Assembly (NCBI GenBank): GCA_947632005.1
Contig: CANRNU010000014.1
Span: 1-54,466, forward strand
Direction of reading: 5' to 3'
DNA: 54,466 nt
Source: an uncultured Oscillospiraceae bacterium
Lineage (GTDB): Bacteria; Bacillota; Clostridia; Oscillospirales; Oscillospiraceae
Under the pieces are notes generated by a model. The model was given only the letters and a program-made list of their open reading frames with translations. It was not told where the DNA came from and did no database searches. The position numbers were made by a program, and so were the translations under genes. Shown in pieces: positions 42,529 through 53,892 of this stretch. The first letter of the stretch is position 1, and every line of letters starts with the position of its first letter.

Positions 42529-43623
42529 TCACGTCATCTCCTTGCCGTCCGGACGGATGCACCGGCCATAGGTGACGGCGGTCTCTCCGGCCAGCTGGGC
42601 CCGCACGGTCCTGCCTTGGGCGGCCTCTGCCTGAACAGCGGCGATCACAGCAGCCGGATCATCGCCGGGACCGTATACCAGGAGCGTGTCCACGTCCCGG
42701 TCGGAAGGCTGGGTCAGGAACCGTTCCAGCTCGTTCAGATATACCGCGAAACCGATGGCGCCGCCCCGCTTGCCCATCCGGTGGATGAGACTGTCGTAGC
42801 GTCCGCCGGTCAGCACCGGAGCCGCCACGCCGTCCACATAGCCCCGGAGGAGCAGGCCGTTGTAGTAATCCGTGTCGTTGATGAGGGACAGATCGACGGT
42901 CGTGTTATACGATCCGAACAGCGTCAGCAGTCCGGTGAGCTGCTCCAGCTCCGTGGCTGCCTGTTTTGCGGCGGGAGGCAGAGGCAGGGAGAGCAGTTCT
43001 TCCACGGTCGGCTGGGCCGGGCCGGAAAGACGGCAGAGCCGGCCCAGAAGCGCAGCGCTGTTTTCAGGCACGCCGGCTCCGGCGCAGACGGCGGCGAGAC
43101 CCTGGACGTTTTTCGCGGCAAAGGCGGCGAGGATGCCCTCCGCGCCGCCGGCGGGCAGGTCGAGGCAGTCCAGGATGCCGGTCAGGATGCCCATGTGGGA
43201 CAGCTCCAGCACATATCGGGGACTGACTGCCTCCAGAGAACGGGCCGCCAGCATCAGCACCTCTCCCATGGCGTACAGGTCCACCGTCCCCAGCATCTCC
43301 AGGCCGGCCTGCATGATCTCCTGAAAACCGCTGCCCCCGCGGGGCACCCGGTACACGTTTTCCATGTACCAGACTTTCCGGGTCCGGTCGTCGTCCCGGG
43401 TGTTGTTGATGATGGACAGGGTGATGTCCGGCTTCAGAGCCATGAGACGGCCATTGGTGTCGCTGAATGTGAGGATGTGGGGGCTGGTGAGGAAGCGCTT
43501 GTTGCGGGCATACAGGTCATATTCCTCGAACTTGCTGACCCGGTACTGCTTGAACCCGTAGCGCTGGTAGAGCGCCCGCAGCTGGGCGGCCAGCCGCTCG
43601 GCAGGGGGAATGGCGTCGGTCAT
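42529..43623 (-). CDS. hisZ: ATP phosphoribosyltransferase regulatory subunit
   Basis: Catalytically dead histidyl-tRNA-synthetase-like partner that gives the short HisG activity and histidine feedback. 364 residues: YGFKQYRVSKFEEYDLYARN, MALKPDITLSIIN, RKVWYMENVYR, FQEIMQAGLEMLG and the late YDSLIHRMGKRGGAIGFAVY. It lacks the C-terminal anticodon-binding domain of a real HisRS. The start overlaps the upstream yerC stop by 4 bp. Confidence 0.94.
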   Translation of the reverse strand: MTDAIPPAERLAAQLRALYQRYGFKQYRVSKFEEYDLYARNKRFLTSPHILTFSDTNGRLMALKPDITLSIINNTRDDDRTRKVWYMENVYRVPRGGSGFQEIMQAGLEMLGTVDLYAMGEVLMLAARSLEAVSPRYVLELSHMGILTGILDCLDLPAGGAEGILAAFAAKNVQGLAAVCAGAGVPENSAALLGRLCRLSGPAQPTVEELLSLPLPPAAKQAATELEQLTGLLTLFGSYNTTVDLSLINDTDYYNGLLLRGYVDGVAAPVLTGGRYDSLIHRMGKRGGAIGFAVYLNELERFLTQPSDRDVDTLLVYGPGDDPAAVIAAVQAEAAQGRTVRAQLAGETAVTYGRCIRPDGKEMT

Positions 43624-43919
43624 GACAGTTCCTCCCTGCCGGCCAGCCGGTCCAGAATGAGCCCATAGCCGCCCGCACCGTAATCCAGACTGCGCTTGAC
43701 CCGGCTGATGGTGGCGGAGCTCGCCCCGGTGCCGGAGGCGGTATTCTGGTAGGACTGGCCGTTCGCCAGCATGCGGGCCACGGCGAGCCGCTGGGCGATG
43801 GACTGTATCTCCCGGACCGTGCACAGATCTTCAAAATACTGATAGCACTCGTCCACATCCCGCAGCATGAGAATGGAACGGAACAGCTGGTCGGTCTCCT
43901 CATTTCTTGGCAGCGCCAT
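43620..43919 (-). CDS. YerC/HisR, TrpR-superfamily regulator
   Basis: 99 residues matching the YerC/YecD branch of the TrpR fold: LMLRDVDECYQYFEDLCTV, REIQSIAQRLAVARMLANGQ, SYQNTASGTGASSATISRVK as the helix-turn-helix, then RSLDYGAGGYGLIL. In Firmicutes this family member has been assigned as HisR, a histidine-responsive repressor of histidine genes. Its place as the first gene of the his operon fits autoregulation. GGAGG lies 7 nt before the ATG, and the promoter carries an inverted repeat. Confidence 0.92.
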   Translation of the reverse strand: MALPRNEETDQLFRSILMLRDVDECYQYFEDLCTVREIQSIAQRLAVARMLANGQSYQNTASGTGASSATISRVKRSLDYGAGGYGLILDRLAGREELS

Positions 43920-44159: not shown

Positions 44160-45599
44160 TCAGTTCTGGGCGCGAATTAGGTTGACATAAAACTGAACCG
44201 CCCCGGGCAGACAGTTCACCTCGATGCACTCGTCCAGCCCATGCATGCCCTTCATCTGCTCCGGGCCGAACACCACCGGGGAGAACCGGATGCAGTTTTT
44301 GCACACGTCCTGGTAAAAATACGCGTCCGTGGCGCCGGTCATCACATAGGGGCTCACGGGCAGACCGGGGAAGGTCTCGCCGATGACCCGCTCCACCAGC
44401 TTGAAGGCGTCGCCCCGGATGTCCACGGGGGAGGAGAAGTCGTTGCTGAGCAGCACCTCGGTTTCCAGACCGAACTTTGCCGCCCGGGCCTGGATGAGTG
44501 CCAGGCTCTCCTGCTCGCCCTGGTGGGGGATGAAGCGCATGTTGGCCCCCACGGACGCCTCCTGGGGCAGCACGTTGTACGCCTCGGACCCGGACAGCAC
44601 CGTGAACGCGGCTGTGGTCTGGAGCATGGCCCCGGCTTGGGCGCTGATGGAGGGGAGGATGGGCTTCAATATAGGGCCGAACAGCCACAGGTTGCCCAGC
44701 ACCAGCCGCAGTCCGAAGGGGGCGTAGGGGGCCAGGCGGCCAAACATGGCCGTGACCTCCGGCAGAAATTTTTTCCGGAAGGGCGGATGTTTCTGCATGC
44801 TGTGCACGAAGGCCGCCACCCGGTCCACCGGGGTGTTCTTGCCCGGGGCGCTGGCGTGGCCGCCGGCGCTGCGGGCCGTGAAGCGAACGTTGGCCTTTCC
44901 CTTTTCAAATACGCCCACCATGGCAAAGTTGCCGTGGATGCCGCCGATGGGCTCGGAGATGATGGCGCCGCCCTCGTCGCAGAGCATAAACAGTTCTACG
45001 CCCCGGCGCTTGAGCTCGGCCACCAGCTTGGGCGCGCCGTCTCCGCCCCATTCCTCCGTGCAGGAGCTGGCCAGATATACGTCGCAGGCGGGCTCGAAGC
45101 CCTCGGCAAGCAGCTGCTCCACGGCCTGGAAGAAGGCCATGAGAGAACACTTGGTGTCCGCCGTGCCCCGGCCCCAGAGCTTCCCGTCTGAAATTTCTCC
45201 GGCAAAGGGCTCATGGGTCCATGGCCCCTCCGCCGGGACCACGTCCTGGTGGCTCATGAGCAGGATGGGCTTTTCCCGGCTTTTACCCTTCCAATAAAAC
45301 AGAAGATTGCCGTCGATGACCGTCTTCTCCAGCCGCTGGTGGACCAGCGGGAACAGCTCTTCCAGGACCTTTTGCAGCTCCAGGAAAGAGGCCAGGTCCG
45401 TCTGCCCGGGATGGGAGACGGTCTGACAGCGGACCATTCTCGCCAGTTTTTCCGCCAGCGCCATGGCGTTTTCATCGGCGGGCGGGGCGGTATAGGCGGA
45501 CTTCTTGGCCGGGGTCAGCAGGGTGCGAACGACTGCGATGAGAACGAGGGCCGCCAACAGCCCCAGCAGGCAGCAGATAATGATGAGCAGCGTTTTCAT
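44160..45599 (-). CDS. Membrane-anchored M20 family metallopeptidase (carboxypeptidase S / PM20D1-like)
   Basis: 479-residue dizinc hydrolase of amide or peptide bonds. An N-terminal helix (LLIIICCLLGLLAALVLIAV) anchors it. The catalytic domain has ILLMSHQDVVPAEGP, GKLWGRGTADTKCSLMAFFQ, LASSCTEEWGGDGAP with the general-base Glu, and MLCDEGGAI as metal ligands. A dimerisation insert (FTARSAGGHASAPGKNTPVD) follows, and the final His is in GMHGLDECIEV. Its overall pattern is closer to carboxypeptidase S/PM20D1, which cleave and form N-acyl amino acids, than to DapE. It is ATGA-coupled to two membrane proteins, suggesting it processes what they carry. Confidence 0.93.
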   Translation of the reverse strand: MKTLLIIICCLLGLLAALVLIAVVRTLLTPAKKSAYTAPPADENAMALAEKLARMVRCQTVSHPGQTDLASFLELQKVLEELFPLVHQRLEKTVIDGNLLFYWKGKSREKPILLMSHQDVVPAEGPWTHEPFAGEISDGKLWGRGTADTKCSLMAFFQAVEQLLAEGFEPACDVYLASSCTEEWGGDGAPKLVAELKRRGVELFMLCDEGGAIISEPIGGIHGNFAMVGVFEKGKANVRFTARSAGGHASAPGKNTPVDRVAAFVHSMQKHPPFRKKFLPEVTAMFGRLAPYAPFGLRLVLGNLWLFGPILKPILPSISAQAGAMLQTTAAFTVLSGSEAYNVLPQEASVGANMRFIPHQGEQESLALIQARAAKFGLETEVLLSNDFSSPVDIRGDAFKLVERVIGETFPGLPVSPYVMTGATDAYFYQDVCKNCIRFSPVVFGPEQMKGMHGLDECIEVNCLPGAVQFYVNLIRAQN

Positions 45600-46273
45600 T
45601 CCGTTGCCCCCTTCCGGCCCTTCTTATAGAGCAGGTACGCGATGGCGATGGCGATGCCGCCGGAGGGGATGACCATGAAGCTGGTAGAACCGGTCAGAGA
45701 CGGGACGAAGATGAACAGCGCGCTCGTGAGCACCAGGGGCGTCAGGGCGATATCCATGTTTTTCCGGTAGTACCGGTAGGCCATGGCGCCGAACAGGGCG
45801 GGCACCACGTTGTCGAAGGCCGGGCGCAGCACCGGGCTCTGCAGCACCGGCTGCAGGGGCGCCAGCAGCAGTACCCCCAGGGCCAGCACCAGGATGGTCA
45901 CCAGGCTGGAGGTGGCGATGGACAGGGTGGATATGATCTCGTTCTCCGCCGTGCCGGTCTTCGCGCCCACCATGTCCCGGGCGTTGACAGCGCAGGGGAT
46001 CTTCATGTTGATCAGGTTGCCGGTGATGAACGCCAGGTACCCGCCGCCGGCCCCCAGCATGGGGGTGTATACCAGAAATTCCACCACGCTGCTCACCGTC
46101 CACACCAGCCCGACGGACAAGAAGGCCCGGGCCACCGCGCCCAGGTCCGGCATGGCCCCCAGTATGCCGCCGATGCAAAAGGGCGCGCCCAGCAGCATGA
46201 GGAGGGTGGCGACGGTGACGGCGCGGCCAATGACATGGGTCCTGCGGTTGTATCTTGCAAAAGTCTCGTTCAT
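45596..46273 (-). CDS. Polytopic membrane protein, partner of DUF5058 protein
   Basis: 225 residues with six or seven predicted helices (TVATLLMLLGAPFCIGGIL, AFLSVGLVWTVSSVVEFLVY, SLVTILVLALGVLLLAPL, LTPLVLTSALFIFVPS and IPSGGIAIAIAYLLYKKG). Conserved-looking loops include TPMLGAGGGYLAFITGNLIN and MKIPCAVNARDMVGAKTGT, rich in Gly, Asn and Thr as in substrate or ion pathways. I do not recognise a named family. GGAGG lies 8 nt before the ATG. It sits between the DUF5058 gene and the M20 peptidase, so the three likely work together as transporter and hydrolase. Confidence 0.8.
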   Translation of the reverse strand: MNETFARYNRRTHVIGRAVTVATLLMLLGAPFCIGGILGAMPDLGAVARAFLSVGLVWTVSSVVEFLVYTPMLGAGGGYLAFITGNLINMKIPCAVNARDMVGAKTGTAENEIISTLSIATSSLVTILVLALGVLLLAPLQPVLQSPVLRPAFDNVVPALFGAMAYRYYRKNMDIALTPLVLTSALFIFVPSLTGSTSFMVIPSGGIAIAIAYLLYKKGRKGATE

Positions 46274-46288
46274 GTTACGTGCCTCCTC

Positions 46289-47041
46289 TCACGCGGCTGC
46301 CCCGACGAGGACCGCCGCGGCCATGCCCACGATCATGCTCCCGGCGATGGAAAAGCTGTCCAGCCAGGCCATGTTTTTCTTCTCGCTCAGATATACGAAG
46401 CCGGCCATGGCCAGACACGCCGCAGCCACCACCACCAGCGGCGTCCAGTCCCCGCCAAAGCGGCCCAGACCGTCTCCGGAGACGAATCCGCCCACATAGC
46501 TGCCGATGTAGGCGCTGACCAGGCCGATGAACATGGCCGTCATGGCCAGGTCCCCGAAGCCGCCGCTCTTGCCCTCGCCGGAGCCCGACCCCAGCTTTTT
46601 CGTGTAGCGCTTATTGAAAAATACGCTCAGCACCATGCCCCACATGATGCACACGCTCATCAGCAGGGCGATGGTGGCAAAGGCGGAGGGCGTCATCTCG
46701 GAAGCGGAAAGGGTTGTCATGCCCACCTGCTCCGCGGCGGCCTGCGCGACCTGTGTCTCATAGTGCAGCGCGCCGATCACCGACAGCCGCAGCCAGGGCC
46801 AGGGCGTGCCCAGACTGCCGGACAGGGCGATGACCCCCAGCAATATGCCCACGCTGGGCAGTACGGAAAATGTGGCGCTGGCGGTGATGGCCCGCTTCAT
46901 CTTCGTTCTGTCCATGCCGATGGCGACCCCCGCCCGCCAGGCCCGGACCATGAACACCACGCACACCACCGCCACAAAGGCAACGATGCATCCGCAGATG
47001 AGATAGACCGGCGTACTGTTGAGTTGCTGTAAAATGCCCAT
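46289..47041 (-). CDS. DUF5058 family membrane protein
   Basis: 250 residues with six or more helices. VYLICGCIVAFVAVVCVVFM is near the N-terminus; then RTKMKRAITASATFSVLPSV, ILLGVIALSGSLGTPWPWLR and LSVIGALHYETQVAQAAAEQ, a re-entrant-looking polar stretch; then ALLMSVCIMWGMVLSVFFN and three late helices. I recall this pattern as DUF5058, of unknown function. GGAG lies 7 nt before ATG 47041. First gene of the leftward operon, divergent from aconitase X. Confidence 0.78.
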   Translation of the reverse strand: MGILQQLNSTPVYLICGCIVAFVAVVCVVFMVRAWRAGVAIGMDRTKMKRAITASATFSVLPSVGILLGVIALSGSLGTPWPWLRLSVIGALHYETQVAQAAAEQVGMTTLSASEMTPSAFATIALLMSVCIMWGMVLSVFFNKRYTKKLGSGSGEGKSGGFGDLAMTAMFIGLVSAYIGSYVGGFVSGDGLGRFGGDWTPLVVVAAACLAMAGFVYLSEKKNMAWLDSFSIAGSMIVGMAAAVLVGAAA

Positions 47042-47072
47042 ATGCCGTCTCCTTTGTTGTATTCTTATCCCC

Positions 47073-47101
47073 ATAATACCATACGGCAAGCGGACACTCA
47101 A
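47073..47101 (-). promoter_or_regulatory. Sigma-A promoter for the DUF5058-M20 operon
   Basis: Leftward TTGAGT (47101-47096), 17-bp spacer, TATTAT preceded by GG (47078-47073), 31 bp before the ATG. Confidence 0.72.
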
Positions 47102-47321
47102 CAAATTCCGAGGAATAAAGCGCAAGAAAACTGAGAAAAATTACATATTTGGCTGGACTATGGCCGCTTGCTCTTGTATAATTTAGATAGCTTGTTCAAT
47201 ACTGACCGCCGCATAGCGCCAACGGTTCAGGTCCATTGGCGCGGTATCCATTGGAATGTGTATATGGCAAAATGCCTCGCGGCGTTTCGCCATCAGATAA
47301 TCATGACAGAGAGGTGATCCC
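47102..47321 (+). promoter_or_regulatory. Divergent control region and leader of the aconitase X operon
   Basis: TATAAT preceded by TG (about 47176-47182) is a likely extended -10 for the rightward operon, with no good -35. The leader then contains GCGCCAA/TTGGCGC (about 47216-47242), a GGCGTTTCGCC hairpin, and a 28-bp segment (47279-47306) shared with the trpE leader. GAGAGGTGA precedes the ATG. Confidence 0.55.
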
Positions 47322-48602
47322 ATGAACCTGACAGACGAACAGCGGGCCCTTCTGGAGGGAGAGAAGGGCGAGGTGATGGCCAAGGTCGTCAAGACCCTGG
47401 TCATGTACGGCGAGACGTTTGGCGCCGGGCGCATGGTCCCGGTGACCAGCCAGTACGGCCACACAGTGATCAGCTTCGGCCTGGGGGTGATGAAGCCGAT
47501 CTACGATCTTTACGACACGCTCCTGGGCGGGGACCTGCCGAAAGGCCAGCAGTTCACCGCCGACCCCCGGCCCCTGGACGACAAGGTCCCGGCGTCGTTT
47601 TTGGAAAACCTGGTCTTTAAGAAATTCATGTACAACCAGCAGGCACGCTATGAGGCACAGCTGGAGAAGCTGGGCGTCACCGGCGACGACGGGTACACCT
47701 GCACCTGCTATATGCCGGAGGTGGGCAACACGCCCAAGCGGGGGGAGGTGCTGTCCTGGGCGGAGTCCTCGGCGGTGGTATATGCCAACTCCGTTCTGGG
47801 CGCCCGGTGCAACCGCAACTCGGGCATCATCGAACTCATGGGCTCCATCGCCGGGTTCGTGCCGGAGTTCGGGCTGCTCACCGACCAGGGGCGAAAGGCC
47901 ACCTGGGTCATCGACGTGCGGTGCAAAAATCGCCCCGAGCCCCAGCTGCTGGGCTCCGCCATCGGCATGAAGGTGATGGAGGACGTGCCCTATATCCGGG
48001 GCATGGAGAAGTGGCTGGGCACGGAGCTCACCGACGCAGCGAAGGATTATCTCAAGGACTTCGGCGCGGCCACGGCCTCCAACGGCGCGGTGGGGCTTTA
48101 TCACATCGAGCACCTGACGCCGGAGGCCGTGGACATGGGGGAGAGCCTCATCGCGGAGGGGGCGCAGACCTGGGTCATCGACGACGAGACGCTGGAAAAT
48201 GTCCGCAAAAACTACCCGGTCATCTGGAAGGACCCGGCGGCTGTGCCCAGGCTGTGCTTCGTGGGCTGCCCCCACATGTCCCTTACCCAGCTTCAGGACT
48301 GGACGGACGCGGTGGAGGCGGGCCTGGAGAAAAACGGCCGGCAGCAGGTGGCGGTGCCCACGGTGTTCACCGCGCCCACGGCGGTGATCCGGGAGTTTGA
48401 AAAGACCCCCTATGCCGCGCGGCTCTCTAAGACCGGGGTGGTGGTCAGCTACATCTGTCCGCTGATGTATATGAACAACCCCCTGTGCAAGAGCAAGGCG
48501 GTCATCACATCCTCCAACAAGCTGCGCACCTATACCAGCGCCAAGTATTATACCGAGGCGGACATTTTGGACATCATCACCGGGAAGGAGGGTGCCAGAT
48601 GA
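47322..48602 (+). CDS. Aconitase X catalytic (large) subunit
   Basis: 426-residue AcnX (DUF521) dehydratase subunit. Family motifs: CTCYMPEVGNTPKRGEVLSW, AESSAVVYANSVLGAR, GSIAGFVPEFGLL, GLYHIEHLTPEA, CFVGCPHMSL and the late PLMYMNNPL. Characterised AcnX enzymes dehydrate cis-3-hydroxy-L-proline or mevalonate 5-phosphate using an Fe-S cluster. Candidate ligands are C127/C129, C316 and C379. ARCNRNSG has Cys163 where I expect Thr, so substrate or cluster may differ. It is ATGA-coupled to the small subunit. Confidence 0.9.
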   Translation: MNLTDEQRALLEGEKGEVMAKVVKTLVMYGETFGAGRMVPVTSQYGHTVISFGLGVMKPIYDLYDTLLGGDLPKGQQFTADPRPLDDKVPASFLENLVFKKFMYNQQARYEAQLEKLGVTGDDGYTCTCYMPEVGNTPKRGEVLSWAESSAVVYANSVLGARCNRNSGIIELMGSIAGFVPEFGLLTDQGRKATWVIDVRCKNRPEPQLLGSAIGMKVMEDVPYIRGMEKWLGTELTDAAKDYLKDFGAATASNGAVGLYHIEHLTPEAVDMGESLIAEGAQTWVIDDETLENVRKNYPVIWKDPAAVPRLCFVGCPHMSLTQLQDWTDAVEAGLEKNGRQQVAVPTVFTAPTAVIREFEKTPYAARLSKTGVVVSYICPLMYMNNPLCKSKAVITSSNKLRTYTSAKYYTEADILDIITGKEGAR

Positions 48603-49039
48603 GAACGTTCCAGGGACGCGCCGTGGTGCCCGGCACATGCACAGCCGAGGCACTGGTGAGCCGGGAGGGCTTCAACACCCTGGCCAGCTACCAGATGGCG
48701 CTGATGTTTGGCGACAAGAAGGTCAAGTGCGGGGACCAGAACAACCCGGACCTCTACAAAAAGCCCATGGTGGGCAAGGCGCTGTGCCTGCCCATGACCA
48801 TCGGCTCCACCACCGGGGGCATGGTGCTGTACGCCGCCTGTGCCATGGGCCGGCAGCCGGCCTGTATGCTCTTTTCCAAACACATCGACTCCCTGGCGGC
48901 CTCCGGGGCCATCCTGGGAGATGTGTGGACGGATGTGAGCATGCCGGTGGTGGACCAGCTGGGGGACGAGTTTTTGCAGTATGTACAGACAGGTATGACC
49001 ATCACGGTGGCCGAGGACGGCACCGTGACGGTGGAATGA
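48599..49039 (+). CDS. Aconitase X swivel (small) subunit
   Basis: 146-residue DUF126 protein, the mobile domain that closes on the AcnX active site; here it is separate, as in the two-subunit type II enzymes. It begins FQGRAVVPGTCTAEALVSRE, has LCLPMTIGSTTGGMVLYAAC in place of the usual Ser-rich loop, then GAILGDVWTDVSMPVVDQLG and TVAEDGTVTVE. The start overlaps the large-subunit stop and the reductase ATG follows 11 bp later. Confidence 0.9.
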   Translation: MRTFQGRAVVPGTCTAEALVSREGFNTLASYQMALMFGDKKVKCGDQNNPDLYKKPMVGKALCLPMTIGSTTGGMVLYAACAMGRQPACMLFSKHIDSLAASGAILGDVWTDVSMPVVDQLGDEFLQYVQTGMTITVAEDGTVTVE

Positions 49040-49049
49040 GGGAGAGACT

Positions 49050-51110
49050 ATGATGGATGCAAAATACGAGCCGCTGTTTACCCCCTGGAAGATCGGGAAC
49101 GTGGAGATCAAAAACCGCATCGTCCAGTGCTCCATGGGCGGCACCAGCCTGTTTGGCTGGCTGGAGCCCTGCCACTTCGACAAGGAGGCCGCCCATCACA
49201 TCCTGAACCGGGCCCAGGAGAACGTGGGTCTGGTGCTGCCGGGGATGCAGTGCGTGCGGGATACCATGGGCCGCCGGTGGCTTTATAAAAACGAGAAGAT
49301 GTTCCGGGATCTGGAAAAATGGCTGCCGGACTTCCACAAGACCGGGGCCAAGCTGTTCGTCCAGCTGGCCGCGGGCTTTGGCCGGTCCATGGCCATCAAC
49401 GACCTGATGGTGAAGATGCTCCAGCACAAGGCCCTGGGCACGGTGGCAAAGCCGTTCCTGGACATCCAGTACGCCTGCGCCTCCGCCTCGGAGACGCCCA
49501 ACCGCTGGTACCCCGAGCTGAAGAGCCGACCGCTGACCGTGGAGGAGATCCAGGAGATGGTAGACGCCTTCGGCCGGACGGCGAAGCTGCTGCGCCAGGC
49601 CGGGGTGGACGGCGTGGAGATCCACGCGGTGCACGAGGGGTATCTCTTGGACCAGTTCACCATCGCCAACATGAATTACCGCACCGACGCCTACGGCGGC
49701 AGCTTTGAAAACCGCTACCGCTTCCCGGTGGAGATCGTCCAGTGCATCCACAGATACTGCGGCGACGACTTCCCCGTGGCGCTGCGGTATTCGGTGGTGA
49801 GCAAGACCAAGGGTTTCGGCCAGGGCGCCGTGCCGGGGGAGGAGTTCACCGAGTTCGGCCGGGACATGCCCGAGTCGGAGCGTGCCATCAAACATCTGCA
49901 GGACGCCGGCTACGCCATGTTCAACTGTGACAACGGCACCTATGACGCCTGGTACTGGCCTCACCCGCCCACCTATATGGCCAAAAACTGCAACCTGGCC
50001 GAGGTGGAGCACATCAAGCAGTTCACCGATATGCCCGTGGTGTGCGCCGGCAAGATGGACCCCGCCACCGCCGCGGCGGAGATCGCCGCCGGTCGTCTGG
50101 ACGCCATGGGTACCGCCCGCCAGAACCTGGTGGACCCGGCCTGGGTCACCAAGCTCATGGAGGGACGGGAGGAGGATATCAAGCCATGCATCGGCTGCCA
50201 CAACGGCTGCTTCAACTTCGCCAAGAGCGAGGGCACGGCCAATACCCAGAGCCTGCCCGACGCCCTGCACCTGGCCCGGTGCGCCCTGACCCCGCCCACC
50301 ATGCAAAGCAAAAAGTATAAGATCGTGCCGGCCAGGAGCCCCAGGAAGGTGGCCGTGGTGGGCGGCGGCATCGGCGGTATGGAATGTGCCTTGGTGCTGA
50401 AAAAGCGGGGCCACACGCCGGTGCTCTTTGAAAAGGGGGACAAGCTGGGAGGGCTCTACATCACCGCCGCAGCCATGAGCTTCAAGGACGCGGACAAGCG
50501 GCTGCTGGCCTGGTACGAGCGGGAGCTTTCCAAGGCCGGCGTGGAGGTACGCCTCAATGCCCCCGTGGAGGACCCAGCCGCGCTGGTGGGCGACTTTGAC
50601 GAGGTGATCGTGTGCACCGGGTCCAAGCCCAAGACCCTGCCCATCCCCGGCTTTGAAAAGACCATCACCTTCACCCAGCTGCTGCTGGGGGACGGCGCCG
50701 GGGATAGAGTGGTGTTCCTGGGCGGCGGCCAGTCCGCCTGCGAGGCGGCCTATGAGCTCTCCCTGCAGGGAAAGCACCCGGTGATCGTGGAGATGGCGGA
50801 CGACCTCATCACCGCGCCGGGCACATGTCTGGCCAACAGCTCCTTCCTGCGGGATGTACTGGCCTTCCGGAAGGTGCCGGTGTATCTGCAGTCCACCATC
50901 ACCGACATCCGGGACGGTGCCGTCACCGTCAAGGGCAAGGACGGCAGCACCTTTGACCTCGCCTGCGACAGCGTGGTCAACGCCGTGGGCTTCGATCCCG
51001 CGCCGCTGGGGGAGAAGGGCAGCCACATCCACCGGGTGGGCACCTGCGTGGCCTGGGGCAACCTCAGAAATGTCATCTGGAATGCCTGGGATGTGTGTAT
51101 GAAGATCTGA
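49050..51110 (+). CDS. Fe-S flavin enoate reductase (2,4-dienoyl-CoA reductase / BaiCD-like)
   Basis: 686 residues. The N-terminal old-yellow-enzyme FMN barrel (1-370) carries a probable proton-donor Tyr in HAVHEGYLLDQF (Y198) and DAYGGSFENRYRF. The [4Fe-4S] site is C380, C383 and C387, then C411 after a longer gap than the usual 11-12 residues. The C-terminal FAD/NAD half has VAVVGGGIGGMECALVL and VVFLGGGQSACEAAYELS. Such enzymes reduce activated C=C bonds with NAD(P)H; gut relatives act on bile acid and steroid enones. After aconitase X, an alkene-forming dehydratase, it may reduce that product. The substrate is unknown. Confidence 0.92.
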   Translation: MMDAKYEPLFTPWKIGNVEIKNRIVQCSMGGTSLFGWLEPCHFDKEAAHHILNRAQENVGLVLPGMQCVRDTMGRRWLYKNEKMFRDLEKWLPDFHKTGAKLFVQLAAGFGRSMAINDLMVKMLQHKALGTVAKPFLDIQYACASASETPNRWYPELKSRPLTVEEIQEMVDAFGRTAKLLRQAGVDGVEIHAVHEGYLLDQFTIANMNYRTDAYGGSFENRYRFPVEIVQCIHRYCGDDFPVALRYSVVSKTKGFGQGAVPGEEFTEFGRDMPESERAIKHLQDAGYAMFNCDNGTYDAWYWPHPPTYMAKNCNLAEVEHIKQFTDMPVVCAGKMDPATAAAEIAAGRLDAMGTARQNLVDPAWVTKLMEGREEDIKPCIGCHNGCFNFAKSEGTANTQSLPDALHLARCALTPPTMQSKKYKIVPARSPRKVAVVGGGIGGMECALVLKKRGHTPVLFEKGDKLGGLYITAAAMSFKDADKRLLAWYERELSKAGVEVRLNAPVEDPAALVGDFDEVIVCTGSKPKTLPIPGFEKTITFTQLLLGDGAGDRVVFLGGGQSACEAAYELSLQGKHPVIVEMADDLITAPGTCLANSSFLRDVLAFRKVPVYLQSTITDIRDGAVTVKGKDGSTFDLACDSVVNAVGFDPAPLGEKGSHIHRVGTCVAWGNLRNVIWNAWDVCMKI

Positions 51111-52965: not shown

Positions 52966-52977
52966 GTGAGGTGCAAT

Positions 52978-53892
52978 ATGATGACTAGCGCGGAACGGGC
53001 GAAGGAACAGTTGACTTTGACGCCGAATGCGGAGTTTACCTTGGAAAATGATGGCTTTATCGGCGCACTGTATAGGCCGGAGAAAGACGAATACCAAGGA
53101 AAGGCCGTCATCATGTTTGGCGGCAGTGATGGCATCTATAACCTCACGAAGCTGGTTGCGGAACAGTATGTGAAGCGCGGCATGACGGTCCTGGCGCTGG
53201 CGTATTGGAATGAACCCGGTCTGCCGGACGGCTTTGAAAAAGTCACGGTGGAATCGGTAGAAAAAGCCGCGTTGTGGCTGCGCGGGCAAGGCTTTGAGAA
53301 AGTTGGCTTGTGGGGGATTTCCATGGGCGCGGAGTTGGCGCTTCTGGCCGGCAGCCTGATGCCGGGGCTGATCTCCTGCGTGACGGCTGTGTGCCCGACG
53401 AACATCTGTGGGCAGGGCTTCGTGAAGAAAAAAGGCATTCAGCAGCTGGAGTGCTCCGCCTTCAGCTGGCGGGGTGAGGAACTGCCCTGGGCAAGACTGA
53501 AGGCTTCCAAGTTCGCCATTCTCCGGGACAGCCTGCGGGAGCGGAGCGTCTGCCTGCGCTCCTGCTATGAGGACGCGGTACGGAACGCCCCGGAGGAGGC
53601 GCAGGTCAAGGTAGAGAATATCGGCGGTCCGATGCTGCTACTCTATCCGGAGCACGACGCCATGTGGCCCTCCGAGCTGTCGGCAGAGAGAATCAAGACG
53701 CGGCTGAAAGAGAAGAATTTTTCCCACCCCTTTAAGTGCGTCAGCTACCAATACGCCAGTCATATGCTGATTCCGCTGAAGTCCCGGTCCACGGTCATGT
53801 TCCGGGTAGAGAGGAAATACCCGGAACAGTGCTGGGAGAGCGACATGGACGCCTTTGAAAAGACGTTGGCGTTCTGGAAAGAGGCCTGGTGA
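52978..53892 (+). CDS. Acyl-CoA thioester hydrolase/BAAT C-terminal-type alpha/beta hydrolase
   Basis: 304-residue alpha/beta hydrolase of the BAAT/dienelactone-hydrolase type. The oxyanion region is AVIMFGGSDGIYN; the nucleophile is Ser115 in GISMG, with Asp227 in LYPEHDAMWPS and His262 in YASHMLIP. Human BAAT uses Cys at the nucleophile; the Ser form points to hydrolysis (thioester or ester) rather than amino-acid conjugation. GAGG lies 6 nt before the first of two ATGs. Codon use is less GC-rich than in the his/trp region, suggesting transfer. It is cotranscribed with a membrane protein. Confidence 0.88.
   Translation: MMTSAERAKEQLTLTPNAEFTLENDGFIGALYRPEKDEYQGKAVIMFGGSDGIYNLTKLVAEQYVKRGMTVLALAYWNEPGLPDGFEKVTVESVEKAALWLRGQGFEKVGLWGISMGAELALLAGSLMPGLISCVTAVCPTNICGQGFVKKKGIQQLECSAFSWRGEELPWARLKASKFAILRDSLRERSVCLRSCYEDAVRNAPEEAQVKVENIGGPMLLLYPEHDAMWPSELSAERIKTRLKEKNFSHPFKCVSYQYASHMLIPLKSRSTVMFRVERKYPEQCWESDMDAFEKTLAFWKEAW

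Follow-up and report, generated by a model that had tools for sequence, protein, structure and literature searches.

What conversion is served by an aconitase X (AcnX) dehydratase whose genes stand directly next to that of an old-yellow-enzyme (OYE) type reductase? The question is raised by a locus in the genome of an uncultured Oscillospiraceae bacterium (assembly GCA_947632005.1, contig CANRNU010000014.1; the whole stretch of 54,466 nucleotides that was analysed is called the window here). The locus consists of two divergent operons: the rightward one encodes the large and small AcnX subunits (AcnX-L and AcnX-S) and a reductase that we call OYE-A, and the leftward one encodes a DUF5058 protein, a second membrane protein and an M20 amide hydrolase. 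An earlier note on this DNA proposed that these genes import a compound, cleave an amide, remove water and saturate the resulting double bond, with a hydroxy acid or a hydroxyproline-like compound as substrate. That interpretation is supported in part. Dehydration and alkene reduction as a unit receive strong support from co-occurrence in three genome samples, from both gene orders and from the exchange of one reductase type for another. The probable function of the pair is a coenzyme A (CoA)-free route in which AcnX and then the OYE-type reductase convert a free 3-hydroxy acid via the 2-enoate to the saturated acid.

Co-occurrence of AcnX and OYE-type reductases

Three samples were compared, comprising 200 genomes of the family, 291 of the Clostridia (each including the window's own genome) and 247 of the Coriobacteriales; the latter belong to the Actinomycetota and the Oscillospiraceae to the Bacillota. 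Identity cut-offs were picked after gaps in identity had been seen, and the Fisher p-values ignore kinship. Because some OYE protein is present in 196 of the 200 family genomes, only the OYE-A clade, set at ≥57% identity in the family, was counted. Of 41 family AcnX matches at E 0.001, 21 at ≥64% identity were counted, including fragments in G185 and G062, and 20 at ≤38% were set aside. OYE-A was counted in 20 genomes, with a contig-end fragment in G196 and a split gene in G004, the next group being at 47-49% identity. Both were present in 18 genomes, AcnX alone in 3 and OYE-A alone in 2 (p = 1e-20). Of these 18 genomes, 6 have the two genes side by side, and 12 retain both although they are on separate contigs. 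The split OYE-A of the draft genome G004 (C26:14126-16137) extends across two reading frames.

The Clostridia sample gave 26 AcnX matches, of which 19 were counted (≥53%, including fragments in G233 and G412) and 7 at ≤38% set aside, and 20 OYE-A matches at E 1e-150, of which 18 were counted (≥53%) and 2 set aside; 11 genomes had both (p = 8e-11). In 6 of the 8 genomes with AcnX only, a second OYE type, OYE-B, lies directly beside AcnX (L233-L236, and by coordinates G342 and G446). Among the Coriobacteriales, all 25 AcnX matches at E 1e-30 were counted, as were 15 of 21 OYE-A matches at E 1e-130 (≥55%; 6 at 41-45% set aside), and all 15 genomes with OYE-A also have AcnX (p = 8e-18). Here OYE-A is always adjacent to AcnX (15/15), with 22-503 bases between the matches and the small subunit in between in G489 and G569. 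The other 10 AcnX genomes all have OYE-B adjacent (L251-L257 from loci that were read; G591, G669 and G687 from coordinates), so that 25 of 25 are paired. OYE-B thus often replaces OYE-A beside AcnX where OYE-A is absent.

Summed over the samples, 59 of 64 genomes with the AcnX clade have a reductase, 43 of them OYE-A and 16 a linked OYE-B (family 18/21; Clostridia 16/18, the own genome being counted once; Coriobacteriales 25/25). This association is real and strong, far above chance. The earlier note would have given up its proposal if the genes did not stay together in related genomes; AcnX and the reductase do stay together.

Gene order was read from the best 80 of 585 confirmed loci and the fetched family and Clostridia loci, which gave 115 near-full AcnX sequences and, without near-copies, 108 distinct loci. 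OYE-A precedes AcnX in 35 and follows it in 10, OYE-B is the neighbour in 6, an FAD (flavin adenine dinucleotide) type in 2 (FAD oxidoreductase and ferredoxin reductase 5' of AcnX in L033 and L066) and a fumarate-reductase-type flavoprotein, one gene from AcnX, in 1 (L229). On a quick AcnX tree of these 108 rows, in which 37 of 105 inner branches have <80% support, OYE-A adjacency changes at least 7 times.

Conserved residues and the predicted reaction

OYE-A has the flavin mononucleotide (FMN) barrel, the Pyr_redox domain, the four cluster cysteines and the His/His/Tyr set of the Fe-S OYE family. His192, His195, Tyr198, Cys380, Cys383, Cys387 and Cys411 are conserved in all 68 near-full rows (64 once near-copies are dropped), and His/His/Tyr is the combination found in alkene reductases. 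The FMN barrel, Fe-S cysteines and FAD/NAD(P)H domain are shared with BaiCD, the long form of bilirubin reductase, 2-naphthoyl-CoA reductase and FadH. Unlike these enzymes, OYE-A has AcnX as partner, and it remains below the NCBIfam cut-offs of BaiCD and bilirubin reductase, with 304.7 of 825 bits and 256.5 of 750 bits, respectively. OYE-B comprises about 753 residues and is 27-31% identical to the window reductase. Its HG-HEGY active-site motif is present in 11 of 11 aligned rows and the four cluster cysteines in 10 of 11 (L233 is without the second), while the loop before the fourth cluster cysteine is 12 residues longer in OYE-A. Eleven genomes (G057, G144, G148, G002, G065, G011, G108, G178, G007, G063, G129) carry a third OYE group with 47-49% identity to the window reductase; none of them has the close AcnX clade, and four have a distant AcnX (G002, G065, G108, G148). 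In three genomes of one genus (L238, L242, L246) OYE-A lies between a gene for a patatin-like hydrolase and genes for FIST-domain proteins, with no adjacent AcnX.

In AcnX-L, Cys127, Cys316, Cys379, Glu148, Ser149, Lys400 and Tyr404 are invariant among 15 aligned orthologs, as are Leu28 and the general-base loop Ser70-Thr71-Thr72 in 14 aligned rows of AcnX-S. Cys127 and Cys316 pair with Cys110 and Cys283 of the Thermococcus enzyme (TkAcnX), and Cys379 with Cys508 of the Agrobacterium enzyme (AtAcnX), the equivalent of TkAcnX Cys342, which itself lies outside the printed alignment. The alignment thus gives the window protein the three-cysteine 4Fe-4S ligand set of type IIb. This protein also has the features of AcnX membership, with Ser70 as general base and Glu148, Ser149, Lys400 and Tyr404 at the carboxylate and hydroxyl site. 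According to PMC8184944, the corresponding Glu, Ser, Lys and Tyr residues and the small-subunit serine hold the carboxylate and the 3-hydroxyl group and abstract the C2 proton, and each of the two AcnX functions characterised so far removes water from a 3-hydroxy acid and goes no further than the alkene or its tautomeric form.

The specificity positions were mapped to AtAcnX by way of TkAcnX Ala47 and Leu27 and the equivalences of PMC8184944. The window has His47 (Asp203 in Agrobacterium, Ala47 in Thermococcus) and Asp81 (Asn233 and Asn79) in AcnX-L, and Leu28 (Trp35 and Leu27) and Thr72 (Thr72 and Val64) in AcnX-S. The substrate contacts Asp203 and Trp35 of types I and IIa are therefore replaced by His47 and Leu28, and the phosphate contacts Asn79 and Asn53 of type IIb by Asp81 and, in an ungapped alignment (a second one is gapped there), Gly53. 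As judged by these alignments, the window AcnX has the substrate landmarks of neither known AcnX function. Its differences from both solved enzymes fit the remark in PMC8184944 that types IIc-IIf had no landmark residue and no assigned function as of 2021.

Compared with archaeal AcnX IIb, the mevalonate-5-phosphate dehydratase, the window enzyme is alike in its two subunits, its counterparts of the Cys110/Cys283 ligands and the Glu/Ser/Lys/Tyr site, and unlike it in Asp81 at the phosphate site and in having a reductase, not a mevalonate-route decarboxylase, as neighbour. With cis-3-hydroxyproline dehydratase (types I and IIa) it shares, by sequence, the AcnX fold, and it would share the dehydration of a free 3-hydroxy acid followed by CoA-free reduction, whereas the type IIb cluster ligands and the Fe-S OYE partner set it apart. 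One genome, G169, has three AcnX copies of the window clade in three different settings (L031, L032, L033), which suggests more than one substrate. In G559 (C1:237793-239391) and G588 (C72:3262-4590) the AcnX-L match is broken into two parts within a single longer frame, of 547 and 629 residues respectively, as though the protein carried an insert or extension.

The family of the adjoining reductase reduces alkenes and the characterised AcnX enzymes dehydrate 3-hydroxy acids, so the simplest joint reading is a CoA-free deoxygenation that consumes reducing power. Gene content, catalytic residues and the coupling across genomes are direct observations. From the enzyme families, with PMC8184944 for AcnX and the general background of the family for the reductase, we infer the reaction, its direction, the electron path, the electron-sink role and the substrate class as follows. 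The AcnX heterodimer would take a free acid with a hydroxyl group on carbon 3; Ser70 of the small subunit would pull the C2 proton while the Fe-S cluster draws off the hydroxyl, giving the 2-enoate. In the OYE-type reductase, electrons of NAD(P)H would pass through FAD and the 4Fe-4S cluster to FMN and saturate the double bond, with Tyr198 of OYE-A as predicted proton donor. CoA would not take part, and for a fermenting anaerobe each substrate molecule would dispose of one electron pair. An amide hydrolase may, in some lineages and possibly in that of the window, first split an N-acyl conjugate to release the hydroxy acid.

Anaerobes also carry out CoA-dependent dehydration and reduction, as in carnitine reduction and the Stickland 2-hydroxyacyl-CoA route. 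There, too, removal of water is followed by saturation of the double bond as an electron sink, but unlike in those routes no CoA transferase, acyl-CoA dehydratase or electron-transfer flavoprotein was present in the chosen part of the neighbours that was scanned. A 3-hydroxyacyl-CoA dehydrogenase is encoded about 5 kb away on the opposite strand in L064.

Amide hydrolases and the DUF5058 cassette

The gene set and the two divergent operons around one control region, as described in the earlier note, are confirmed by families and coordinates (Table 1). All six genes are open frames and five match their families. AcnX-L overlaps AcnX-S, and the membrane protein gene the M20 gene, by 4 bases, and the interval between AcnX-S and the reductase gene is 10 bases. 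The control region has a sigma-70-like site on each strand, 2 where shuffled sequences average 0.6, and a single terminator-like site, where they average 0.4; all are consensus matches only.

Table 1. Features of the locus, with positions in the window.
Feature	Positions	Strand	Evidence
M20 amide hydrolase, N-terminally anchored, 479 aa	44160-45599	-	PF01546 108 bits, PF07687 31 bits
Membrane protein without Pfam match, 225 aa, DUF5058 partner	45596-46273	-	
DUF5058 membrane protein, 250 aa	46289-47041	-	PF16481 255 bits
Divergent control region, 280 bases	47042-47321	.	
AcnX large subunit, 426 aa, Fe-S dehydratase	47322-48602	+	PF04412 300.2 bits (cut-off 31.5); matches 7cnr, 7cnp/7cnq/7d2r
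AcnX small (swivel) subunit	48599-49039	+	PF01989 42 bits (cut-off 27); matches 7cnr_B
OYE-A, old-yellow-enzyme/Fe-S/pyridine-nucleotide reductase, 686 aa	49050-51110	+	PF00724, PF07992

Beyond these operons, an alpha/beta hydrolase with a match to the BAAT/acyl-CoA thioesterase C-terminal domain is encoded on the same strand 1.9 kb 3' of the reductase (52966-53892). On the other side, at 42529-43919, lie genes for histidyl-tRNA-synthetase-type (HisZ-like) and Trp-repressor-type proteins, which probably belong to a histidine biosynthesis operon.

The amide hydrolases that adjoin the AcnX-reductase pair belong to two unrelated families and occur in two phyla. An M20 enzyme is divergent from AcnX in the window and L051, upstream of the pair in L064 with a glyoxalase-type gene in between, and directly downstream of OYE-B-AcnX in L252, L254 and L256 (for L254 by Pfam scan). 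A choloylglycine-hydrolase-type enzyme (PF02275) immediately precedes OYE-A in L047 and L230, does so by similarity in L262, and is present as a 25-residue end only in L050; a search with no positive control gave no match to it in the window's own genome, which is 78% complete. Eight amide hydrolases lie ≤700 bases from the AcnX block and three farther away, among them those of the window and L051 (expected 2.7, p = 0.001), a proximity test that carries little weight since 4 of the 8 close cases are loci that supplied queries. The window M20 has the catalytic and dimerisation domains and a single N-terminal hydrophobic segment (residues 1-32), which bears out the membrane anchor that had been claimed for it; its best NCBIfam models are of the PRK08262 type, with 268.5 of 503 bits and hence under the equivalog cut-off.

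3-Hydroxy N-acyl amides of 3-18 carbons are reported in PMC12803199 to be widespread gut microbial molecules, and they would fit the steps of amide cleavage, dehydration and reduction. A CoA-free module for such amides, for example commendamide, in which an amide hydrolase, the new AcnX type and the Fe-S OYE reductase would act in succession, is a tentative and rather unlikely extension. If true, Oscillospiraceae and Coriobacteriales would use bacterial hydroxy-lipids as electron acceptors and thereby reshape the host pool of signalling amides.

The leftward operon recurs as a cassette across the family (L207-L222): by mechanical gene calling, 14 of 16 other loci fetched have the membrane protein next to DUF5058 and 12 of 16 have M20 there, with no M20 called alongside the two membrane proteins in L210, L218 and L219. 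The 225-residue protein has a conserved stretch around GGxYLxFxTGNLxNxKxPC. Profiles of DUF5058 and its partner gave weak PDB matches only (best E 0.067 and 0.054) and revealed no kinship between the two; AlphaFold models from 3 sequences each had pLDDT (predicted local distance difference test) values of 44 and 40, and no fold was found for either protein. No match to DUF5058 was found in the Coriobacteriales genome of L064, without a positive control. No transporter common to all AcnX loci was found among the scanned neighbours; single cases are TRAP DctM (L100), CitMHS (L251), MFS (L078), a sodium/alanine symporter (L130), CLC (L127), MatE (L048) and an SNF symporter (L071).

Alternative readings and significance

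Several observations weigh against the proposed deoxygenation route. Five of the 64 AcnX genomes have neither OYE-A nor a linked OYE-B (G051, G172, G062, G233, G412); in three of these AcnX is represented by fragments alone. OYE-A occurs without the AcnX clade in 2 genomes of the family sample and 7 of the Clostridia sample, so the reductase may have other uses. No such reductase is nearby in 37 of the 108 AcnX loci, and a further 17 end too soon to judge; 16 of the 37 come from sampled genomes, 14 of which have OYE-A elsewhere. A single order switch on the AcnX tree explains the upstream and downstream positions of OYE-A, and the two gene orders therefore represent few events. Amide hydrolases, finally, were seen at only 6 of the 54 loci where a reductase adjoins AcnX (one as a fragment) and in 4 of 15 further Coriobacteriales loci.

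There is nearly an even chance that M20, DUF5058 and its partner form an independent cassette for uptake and hydrolysis that merely neighbours the AcnX-reductase operon in the window lineage. DUF5058 at ≥62% identity is present in 15 of the 200 family genomes, 7 of which also have AcnX; no AcnX was seen at the 16 other DUF5058 loci fetched; and L052, whose AcnX is 92% identical and second in identity among the matches listed, has no cassette within 10 kb upstream. Yet DUF5058 and AcnX are found together more often than chance would give (p = 2e-4, kinship ignored), the cassette is again beside AcnX, convergent and with no adjacent reductase, in L071, and different M20 or other amide hydrolases adjoin the pair in L064, L252, L254, L256, L047, L230 and L262. 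Given that the cassette usually lies elsewhere and is absent beside AcnX in so close a relative, it is only a candidate for feeding the AcnX-reductase pathway in the window. Amide cleavage stands in so far as M20 and choloylglycine-hydrolase-type partners recur in two phyla, and is weakened by their presence at a minority of loci and by the usual location of the window's M20 cassette.

Other substrates or directions for the pair itself are much less probable. A CoA-free conversion of L-carnitine via crotonobetaine to gamma-butyrobetaine would follow the chemistry of known CoA-dependent carnitine reduction, and Asp81 in place of Asn79 could, from the alignment, suit a cation; but it leaves no role for the amide hydrolases, and no BCCT-type (betaine/carnitine) carrier was present in the chosen part of the neighbours that was scanned in Pfam, though L071 has a symporter of the sodium:neurotransmitter type near AcnX, so that we hold this reading to be highly improbable. 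It is also improbable that the pair runs backwards, with the flavoenzyme desaturating an acid and AcnX hydrating the product to make or oxidise a 3-hydroxy acid. Some OYE-like proteins are dehydrogenases (histamine and trimethylamine dehydrogenases account for 4 of 60 PDB rows among the matches listed), but OYE-A has the His/His/Tyr set of alkene reductases and the hosts are fermenting anaerobes. Moreover, the characterised AcnX enzymes dehydrate (PMC8184944). The hydroxyproline-like substrate of the earlier note is disfavoured as well. AcnX types I and IIa do catalyse the first step of a route from cis-3-hydroxyproline via pyrroline-2-carboxylate to proline (PMC8184944 and PMC5144071), and the window AcnX-S has the Thr72 equivalent; since, however, its AcnX is without the substrate landmarks of known functions, this route is very unlikely. 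The cis-3-hydroxyproline dehydratase model NF051439, which covers the fused type, gives 139.2 bits against a cut-off of 700, and of the 200 family genomes only G005, itself a carrier of AcnX, has a D-proline reductase PrdA match that exceeds the cut-off. On these scores and the specificity residues, a link to hydroxyproline and proline reductase was rejected as the leading explanation.

The CoA-free deoxygenation of 3-hydroxy acids therefore remains the reading that we prefer. A link between AcnX and an alkene reductase was not found in titles and abstracts of the open-licence literature, nor was any mention of DUF5058 found in that literature. The AcnX-clade hosts are bacteria of two phyla, many of them from animal guts according to record titles, and the pairing of an Fe-S dehydratase with an alkene reductase in such gut bacteria suggests an undescribed hydroxy-acid deoxygenation that serves as electron sink. 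An AcnX clade without known landmark residues hereby gains a firm partner enzyme and a small set of candidate substrates. If the proposal is true, anaerobic metabolism would gain a deoxygenation route that needs no CoA, and such a route may account for the loss of hydroxy acids, or of their amides, from the gut and the rumen.

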